The translations under genes were made by a program, and so were the position numbers. 64,000 nt of DNA from Alitta virens (lineage: Eukaryota; Annelida; Polychaeta; Phyllodocida; Nereididae). Shown in pieces: positions 43,201 through 46,200 of the stretch. The stretch spans positions 3,343,515 to 3,407,514 of the forward strand of contig OW028582.1 in NCBI GenBank assembly GCA_932294295.1, read 5' to 3'. Every line of letters starts with the position of its first letter. Position 1 is the stretch's first letter. The notes below the pieces were generated by a model, which did not search any database, had not been told where the DNA came from, and saw nothing but the letters and a program-made list of their open reading frames with translations.

Positions 43201-46200
43201 GTTAGTGAGTCACTCACTGATCGTCAGTCAATTGAAAATTCAAAAAGAAAATAAACTTCATGTTATATAACTTTGTGAGCCATCATTTTATTTCTGTCGG
43301 CTCGTTTCTCTTTATATTGGGGGATCCGAGTAGCTAAAAATTAAATAAGATTTTTAGAAAAGCGAGGGGTTGGGGGGAGGTGTTGGTCCTGAAGACCCCC
43401 CCCCCCTCCAACCCCTCGTTTTTCTAAATTAAGATTAAGAAAATACTGGTCAAACCTCTTTTTCTCTTTTAGAGGACCCCCTTCCCCCGCTTTTTAAAAA
43501 GCCTGCTTATTAGCCCTCAGTTGAACACAACTCAAATTTATGGAAATTAATCGATAACTTTTAATGCTCCAAATTTTGTCGTTTGTTATTTCAGGTGCGA
43601 ACGATGCAACCAAATCCTATCCATGATTCCGACACAGACTGACTGTACTTGCCCAGAATCTAATTTGGTAATTTTTAGAAATATTTAATAGTCTTTTTTG
43701 ATATCCTGAATACACTTTGTCATTGTTTGAAAACATATTTTTATATCCTCTAGCTTATTAAATTAATTATTCGTGTTCATTTCTGCAGGTGGGAGGTGTG
43801 TGTTTTGCATCTGACGATGACGTTATTCCCGACTCCGAAGATTTGTATAGAGTAGATTTCGTAAGTATTTTAAGCTTCAAATTATCTCGAGCATTAATTG
43901 TAGAATTTTTGAAGCTGTTATCGAGTAAAATAATATTTTCTCTATTATGCCAGGTCGTGTGTATTAAAAAGCTGTGTAATATTTCAAGTACATGTATTGT
44001 AACTATAACACTGTGTGTGGTCACCTCACAGCCAAGCGAGGTAATTATGGACATTCTTGCTAGTTTACAAAGTTAAACTGATTGGTTAAAATAGGTAGCC
44101 GATAGGCTGAGTATGGACTTAAGAAATCTTCTCTCAAAAAACAAGAGAAATGGATTCATATTTTTTGAGTTAAGGCAGTTTTTCTGAATTGCCTGCTTTT
44201 CAGAACATGTATTGCATATACTCAGCACATGAACATCTAATTATTCTGTAATTTCAATGACCTTAAATACCATAAGCCAGCCTAAAGACTATAAGACAAA
44301 TTGATTAATTTAGTTTAGATGAGTAAACGAGCAAAACATGTACATAATGAGGTCGCTGGGCTGTGAGGTGACGACACACTACAATGTATCCTCTATTTAT
44401 GTGTCTTTTTGATAGGGTGGAACCAAAGTCAGATCCCAGTTTTTTGTGGACAACATTCGAGCGGTTTATGGAATGTGTCAGGTACGTTGGTTTAAGTTTA
44501 AGCTTGAAGCATTTCTCGATATCGCAAAATGGAAACCTCAACAAAATAAATAATGAACGCGATGCTGTGGAATCAACAGAAAGAACAGATAATGTAAAGT
44601 AAGCAAGAGAAATTCAATTTCTGCCCTTTTTAAAATGTTCGCTAATGTTTTGGTGACTACACAATTTTAAGTTGCCAATCATCTTGGTTAGGTTATTGTC
44701 TAGTTTAATAATGTTAATTGTCAAATATTTAATAAGAGAATGACAAATTTGATGTCTCTTGAAAAATTTTATGTCTCATGAAACTCTTTAATTGTGAATG
44801 ACAGTAATGGCCAATTCGCCTTCTTATTATTAAGTACTCGCCTTCTTTTGGCCCCAACCATCGTGTCCTTACCAGGTGTTTTCTGGATGGGAAATCGCTT
44901 CAACATAAAATGATAATGGACTAGATCTTTCTTTTCGCACAATATCTAATACAAGTTGAATTAATGTCATTGACTTAATTTTAGACTCAGTACGCCAACT
45001 TGACGGCCTGTCAAGTCCTGGGCAACCTGTGTATGTTGACCGTCTATGACGAGAGTGGAACGACGACCAGTCGGGTCACTAATGCTTGCGAAGGTTATAA
45101 AGTCCTGGCAGGGTCAACGACCTCTGGATTGCTGCGAAATGACCAGTAGGCACAGTTTCTCTCGTAACTGTTGTGCAAAGTTGTTTTTGATTAGTTGCTT
45201 GTACATATATTGCTTTTCAGTTGCATGTGTTTCGCTCAGTTGAGTGTGCTTCACATTTGAGTGCAGCTTGTCGTCAATGGGTTTTGAAGTTGTTTTTTTT
45301 TGCTTTGATTGTTGCTTGTTTGTTGCTTTTTAGTTGCATTTATTATATTAGTTGCTTCTTTCCAAGGGCTGTTCCATTTATGAAAAAGGGAGGGGGTGGA
45401 CCATAAACTTTTCAGACCAAATATTTATGTTTTTTTTTAACAGAGCCCCCCACACCCGCTTTTCCTCTTCCCCGCTTTTTCTCTTTTGGAGAACCCCTAC
45501 TCCCTCCCTTTTTCAAAAAATCTTTTTTAAATGGAACACCCTAAGTATCTTTTGCATGTATATTTGCTATTTGTCATTTCATTTGCTAAGCCTTCAATTG
45601 CATGTATGTATAAAGACTAACGCTTTTATGATTTTTTACAAATTTCATAACTACAGACAGCTCTTTGACGCTTGTCACTACTCGACAAAAGCCCTATCTT
45701 TTCTTTCTATTTTATTTATTTTCTCAAATATTTATTTCCAATTTTTGTTTGTTAATTTATGCTTGCTTGGCAATGCGGTCTTTCAGTTTGTAGCATCACT
45801 GATGACGGGGGCATTTGCATAGCTTTAAAGTTCTCGCACAGAAAGCTTGTACTCTTTGTTTTTAACATTTTAATTTCTGTAAATATATTTGTTTCATTCT
45901 CACTGCTTGTAGGTGCAATATAGAAACATCTCTGCCTGTCAAACTATCAGCAACATGTGTGTCATGCTTGTGTTTAAACAAATCACGGCTAGCGCTTTTC
46001 CGCTTGATGCATGCGGCTTGTACAAAGCATTGGCGAGTACTACAGGTCTTGGGATTCAAGGCATTTTGCTGGAAAACAGGTGGATTAAGCAATAAAGCAT
46101 TTGTTAAGCTCGACATTACTTTAATTACATATTATGTAATTGCAATATGTGAACATACTATTTCGTAATATTTTTATCAATAATTTTTATTAAAAAATTG

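Follow-up and report, generated by a model that had tools for sequence, protein, structure and literature searches.

Two tandem copies of exon 8 in the ragworm TMEM67 (meckelin) gene, most likely a mutually exclusive pair

The TMEM67 gene of the ragworm Alitta virens holds two adjacent, homologous versions of exon 8, termed 8a (44985-45145, 161 nt) and 8b (45913-46079, 167 nt), both on the + strand and both supported by the gene model and by a profile of homologous proteins. They are most likely a genuine mutually exclusive pair which would swap one segment of the Wnt-binding ectodomain, with reading frame and nonsense-mediated decay providing at least part of the enforcement. Each copy fits the flanking exons when used singly, while use of both or of neither places a stop codon in exon 9.

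Gene model and assembly of the TMEM67 locus

The window, meaning the whole stretch of 64,000 nucleotides analysed, contains a complete TMEM67 (meckelin) gene at 40240-55431, with all exons on the + strand. Splice borders were read from the sequence and the resulting model was checked by script, giving a model with 22 exon positions in which every intron is GT-AG and in which positions 3 and 8 are each present as two tandem copies. Exon 1 (40240-40453) carries the start codon and a hydrophobic N-terminus that looks by eye like a signal peptide. It is followed by exon 2 (41176-41264), the alternative copies 3a (41875-41974, 100 nt) and 3b (42319-42421, 103 nt), which are both phase 0 in and phase 1 out, and exons 4 (43008-43104), 5 (43595-43667) and 6 (43789-43860). 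Exon 7 (44416-44481), which leaves in phase 0, is the upstream exon common to 8a and 8b, and exon 9 (47703-47946) is their common downstream exon. The remainder of the model comprises exons 10 (48178-48241), 11 (48756-48836), 12 (49070-49147), 13 (50028-50200), 14 (50735-50989), 15 (51341-51460), 16 (51775-52096), 17 (52737-52945), 18 (53185-53307), 19 (53785-53907), 20 (54554-54656), 21 (54774-54916) and 22 (55351-55431).

Two of the four isoforms (3a/8a and 3b/8b) were scanned against Pfam. Both matched Meckelin (PF09773) over profile positions 2-825 of 825, with scores of 932.9 bits for 3a/8a and 935.1 bits for 3b/8b against a cut-off of 25, and the match begins past exon 3. The gene model and an alignment with seven other proteins gave a product with a cysteine-rich extracellular N-terminus and a conserved membrane and C-terminal part. 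Among the 120 of 1070 matches listed, the best identity (61% over the scored region) was to the annelid Owenia, and no nereidid was named among the matches listed (10 rows; 120 of 1070). A protein search with a piece of the ectodomain had no hit at E <= 0.001 in 2334 candidates, and none of the matches listed from these searches was a close relative with the pair.

Intron 10/11 (48242-48755) is of U12 type by sequence, as judged against the generally known U12 consensus, with the donor GTATCCTTT and a branch-like motif TCCTTAAC at 48740 whose A lies 9 nt ahead of the intron end. One paper lists human TMEM67 separately from those Meckel genes that contain minor introns (PMC13216214), so the type of this intron may differ from that in human. 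Beyond the gene, an open frame at 63106-63441 resembles, by eye and from its translation, an exon of a UBE2C-type ubiquitin-conjugating enzyme.

A genome search located TMEM67 twice on one contig, 513 kb apart. Comparison in several pieces indicated that approximately 122 kb had been assembled twice, at contig positions ~3307597-3429787 and 3821300-~3943027, and the whole window (1-64000) lies inside the first copy (3307597-3429787). This copy runs up to a scaffold gap of 200 N (3429788-3429987) and the other begins directly after the scaffold gap at 3821100-3821299. Because scaffold gaps bound the duplicated stretch, as they would the leftover ends of overlapping or haplotypic contigs, a second TMEM67 gene was rejected as the simplest reading; the plainest account of the doubling is an assembly overlap or a haplotypic duplication in which one TMEM67 was sampled twice, and a single gene is assumed here. 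Between the two copies there are 26 differences in 3261 nt of exon and 226 in 11931 nt of intron, with seven amino-acid differences in complete codons. The border hexamers of all 24 exons are identical in both. Exon 8a differs by two silent changes and exon 8b by one replacement (Ala to Thr).

Borders, phases and reading frame of exons 8a and 8b

Direct reading of the sequence placed the acceptor of 8a at ...cttaattttag|ACT and its donor at CCA|gtaggc; the corresponding borders of 8b are ...cactgcttgtag|GTG and CAG|gtggat, and both exons thus have AG/GT borders. The lengths of 161 and 167 nt and the phases (0 in, 2 out) proposed in the original prediction were confirmed both by this reading and by the gene model. 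The fit of each copy to exon 9 at 47703 was likewise upheld: joining 8a completes the junction codon CA+G and yields Gln-Pro, and joining 8b completes AG+G and yields Arg-Pro. All four combinations of 3a or 3b with 8a or 8b were found by script to be open with a single terminal stop, at 996 (3a/8a), 998 (3a/8b), 997 (3b/8a) and 999 (3b/8b) residues, in agreement with the predicted set of four ectodomain isoforms of 996 to 999 residues. When 8a was spliced to 8b in the model, the frame shifted and a stop followed after 364 codons, which by exon lengths lies in exon 9, again as foreseen. Skipping of both copies gave a stop after 239 codons, also in exon 9 by exon lengths.

With respect to splice-site strength, the donors match the consensus at 5 of 9 positions (8a) and 6 of 9 (8b), and since the other exons range from 3 to 8, these values are uninformative on the choice between the copies.

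Homology and constraint on exon 8

Thirty-nine other meckelins, picked by hand from 128 listed proteins to span phyla, were aligned with the two window isoforms. An exon 8 profile was built from the 39 homologue rows, leaving out the window's own sequences, and was run against all 2162 six-frame open reading frames of at least 20 aa in the window. The frame of 8a scored 53.4 bits (E 2e-15) and that of 8b 47.0 bits (E 2e-13), bearing out the earlier claim that both match the same region of meckelin. The next best frame, on the opposite strand, reached 11.0 bits (E 0.035), which ruled out a third copy of exon 8 in the window. In 1000 residue shuffles of each peptide the maximum was 10.6 bits for 8a and 8.7 bits for 8b; with profile scores so far above the shuffles, chance open reading frames were also ruled out. 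As single sequences, the two exons matched the solved meckelin chain 7fh1_A weakly (E 0.029 for 8a, 0.0049 for 8b).

Three cysteines and the core-motif Asn were present in 39/39 aligned homologues and in both 8a and 8b, and the sharing of these cysteines by the two copies, as originally described, was therefore seen in the alignment as well. An N-glycosylation sequon was found in 37/39 homologues and in both exons (NLT in 8a, NIS in 8b). At the 13 columns conserved at 60% or more, 8a carries the majority residue at 12 and 8b at 9, and at the 29 variable columns the two copies agree at only 7. A conserved core with a divergent remainder is what two working versions built on one scaffold would be expected to look like.

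Overall, 19 of 53 aligned residues are identical between 8a and 8b (0.36), close to the 0.35 that 8a averages against the 39 homologues. In the exon 8 tree the two copies are grouped with a support of only 0.159, the region being short. Because of this low support, and of an 8a-8b identity close to the mean identity of 8a to its homologues, no date is given for the duplication. The nearer copy is 8a for 32 of the 39 homologues and 8b for 6, with one tie, and the branch of 8b is the longer of the two (1.50 versus 0.63); on these sequence comparisons 8b appears as the more changed member of the pair.

This asymmetry favors a different account, in which splicing in practice draws on a single copy, probably 8a, and 8b is a duplicate that is seldom spliced in or is fading, and the fact that the sole difference in 8b between the assembled copies is a replacement points the same way. 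However, 8b has kept a 167-nt open frame, its phases, the invariant residues and the sequon despite its divergence from 8a, and an exon that had diverged this far while fading would be expected to lack an intact frame. Furthermore, the Pfam score of the scanned isoform with 8b is no lower than that of the isoform with 8a, and the donors of both copies fall within the range of the other exons. We consider a fading 8b unlikely, and use of both copies as alternatives is preferred.

The exon could be placed relative to human and mouse TMEM67. A mutation named c.870-2A>G indicates that human exon 9 begins at c.870 (PMC3579735), which is the third base of codon 290. The junction codon in the window aligns with mouse Trp 293, which becomes 290 after the three-residue offset between the species (compare M252/M255). 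By this alignment the exon 8/9 border matches the human one in codon and phase, and because of this agreement the duplicated unit is most likely the ancestral exon 8. Vertebrate TMEM67 shares with the window gene this border codon and phase (in human) and the invariant residues; we know of no second exon 8 in a vertebrate TMEM67.

In mammals the N-terminal region of TMEM67 bound Wnt5a in vitro, and binding was abolished by M252T, L349S, Q376P and R440Q (PMC4457033). The M252 column falls within exon 8 in the alignment, where 8a has Leu and 8b has Met. Across the 39 homologues this column is Leu 20 times, Met 17 times and Ile twice, and with both Leu and Met so common, neither copy is unusual there. 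The sites of L349S, Q376P and R440Q lie outside exon 8 by residue number, and since these changes are likewise reported to abolish binding, exon 8 is not the unique ligand site.

How exclusivity could be reached

Several mechanisms for single use of the two copies were considered. Steric hindrance would call for a very short intron 8a/8b; at 767 nt, this intron makes crowding unlikely, and the mechanism was rejected. Incompatibility of U2 and U12 borders was also ruled out, as no U12-type border is present at either copy: the donors are GTAGGCACA (8a) and GTGGATTAA (8b), the borders of both exons are U2-like, and exon 10 alone has a U12-like donor among the 23 listed.

In Dscam-like docking and selector systems, one docking site is complementary to selector sequences near each copy. 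Complementarity of 11 or 13 nt between intron 7/8a and introns 8a/8b and 8b/9 showed no excess over block shuffles. An excess was found between introns 8a/8b and 8b/9, and it stems from repeat elements, namely a palindromic repeat-like element at 45355-45550 in the former and a related repeat-like element at 47370-47585 in the latter (both on the + strand, limits by eye). Pairing of these two elements could loop out 8b and leave 8a as the default, possibly as a layer on top of the preferred explanation. They gain 56.6 kcal/mol by pairing together rather than folding alone, and the second assembled copy has the two elements as well, again with predicted pairing. Against this, an equal gain (56.5) is obtained across exons 20-21, where the model has no alternative copy, and two other intron combinations gain 55.4 and 59.5, leaving no specific signature; the shuffle control for duplex energy was moreover a simple block shuffle. 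Since the same gain appears across constitutive exons, looping is a weak idea and we regard it as rather improbable.

Repeat-like elements are a more general feature of the gene. Six TMEM67 introns hold such elements, mostly palindromic, and CTGTTCCATT occurs in four of the six; those not described above lie at 43335-43515, 53600-53725, 54105-54330 and 54978-55192 (limits by eye). Strong mutual pairing is predicted for several pairs of elements.

Stops in the products that contain both copies or neither are common, though not universal, among mutually exclusive tandem-duplicated exons. As part of the mechanism we prefer that wrong products are removed by way of the reading frame, because this needs no extra assumption, and a precedent is available in U2AF1. 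There, mRNAs with both or neither of exons 3 and Ab contain stop codons and are made scarcer by decay (PMC5224494), which in this way helps exclusivity, as is proposed for 8a and 8b. The U2AF1 copies differ at just seven residues, whereas 8a and 8b are far more diverged and encode an extracellular segment.

The same frame logic could also be read as an output switch, in which regulated use of both copies or of neither produces a truncated protein or a decay target and hence less TMEM67. Both such products do stop in exon 9, and the equivalent products of U2AF1 are decay targets (PMC5224494); a switch acting through decay, however, needs no second coding copy with its protein core kept, and as the main role of the pair it seems to us a slender prospect. 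That the window is a mosaic with one exon from each haplotype or gene copy is scarcely credible and was rejected, for while the locus does lie inside the ~122 kb assembled twice beside scaffold gaps, the second copy keeps 8a and 8b intact and in unchanged order, as does the first, with start-to-start spacings of 928 and 933 nt in the two copies.

Proposed origin and use of the pair

The explanation which we hold to be probable starts from a single-copy TMEM67 in which the ancestral exon 8 was duplicated in tandem. The two copies would now be spliced singly, one per transcript. Transcripts with both or with neither would carry the stop in exon 9 and would be removed by nonsense-mediated decay, and because both of these outcomes place a stop there, single use would be the only productive one. 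On this view, quality control and not a physical block would account, at least in part, for exclusivity among stable mRNAs. The products of 8a and 8b would have a common scaffold (the three cysteines, the core Asn and the sequon) and differ at most variable positions, in the extracellular region to which binding of mammalian Wnt5a is ascribed. The likely consequence is that binding of a ligand or partner by the ciliary receptor would be tuned.

Relation to known exclusive exons

Mutually exclusive tandem-duplicated exons are a known class, with 236 annotated events in human (PMC9741552). Exons 8a and 8b resemble its members in being adjacent, homologous internal exons of similar length and equal phases that offer alternatives of one segment; each is open when used singly, and joint use or joint omission is non-productive. 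They differ in their low mutual identity (19/53) and in that they are known from genomic sequence alone. TMEM67 has no occurrence in the main text of that human survey, and among the matches listed from the open-licence literature (titles and abstract openings) no report of exclusive exons in TMEM67 was found, which does not prove absence. Nothing was found in the open-licence literature on meckelin structure or on ADAMTS9 cleavage. An account of coq-2 (PMC7434440), in text that mentions both annelids and mutually exclusive exons, likewise concerns alternative splicing of one gene in animals, the product there being an enzyme and that of TMEM67 a receptor. For Alitta virens, the RNA-seq run ERR10123675 is given in the assembly paper (PMC10352625).

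A second duplicated exon and implications

Exon 3 was confirmed as a further duplicated exon of TMEM67 by a profile of 33 rows, on which 3b scored 39.4 bits, 3a 34.1 and the next best frame 8.4. The two copies share 8 of 33 aligned residues, and the nearer copy is 3a for 15 of the 33 homologues and 3b for 18. As with exon 8, use of both copies or skipping of both leads to an early end (146 and 105 codons, respectively). With two exon pairs in a single ciliary receptor gene, TMEM67 stands out within a known kind of splicing switch. A possible extension, put forward tentatively, is that the 3a/3b and 8a/8b choices are made independently, in which case four ectodomains might differ in ligand or co-receptor preference according to ragworm tissue or stage.

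Mutations in TMEM67 lead to Meckel-Gruber and Joubert syndromes (PMC4457033). The role of the segment that contains the disease site M252 could be compared directly between its natural paired versions. If the two pairs are indeed chosen independently, a ciliopathy gene which is known in a single version in vertebrates would encode a combinatorial ciliary Wnt receptor in the ragworm.
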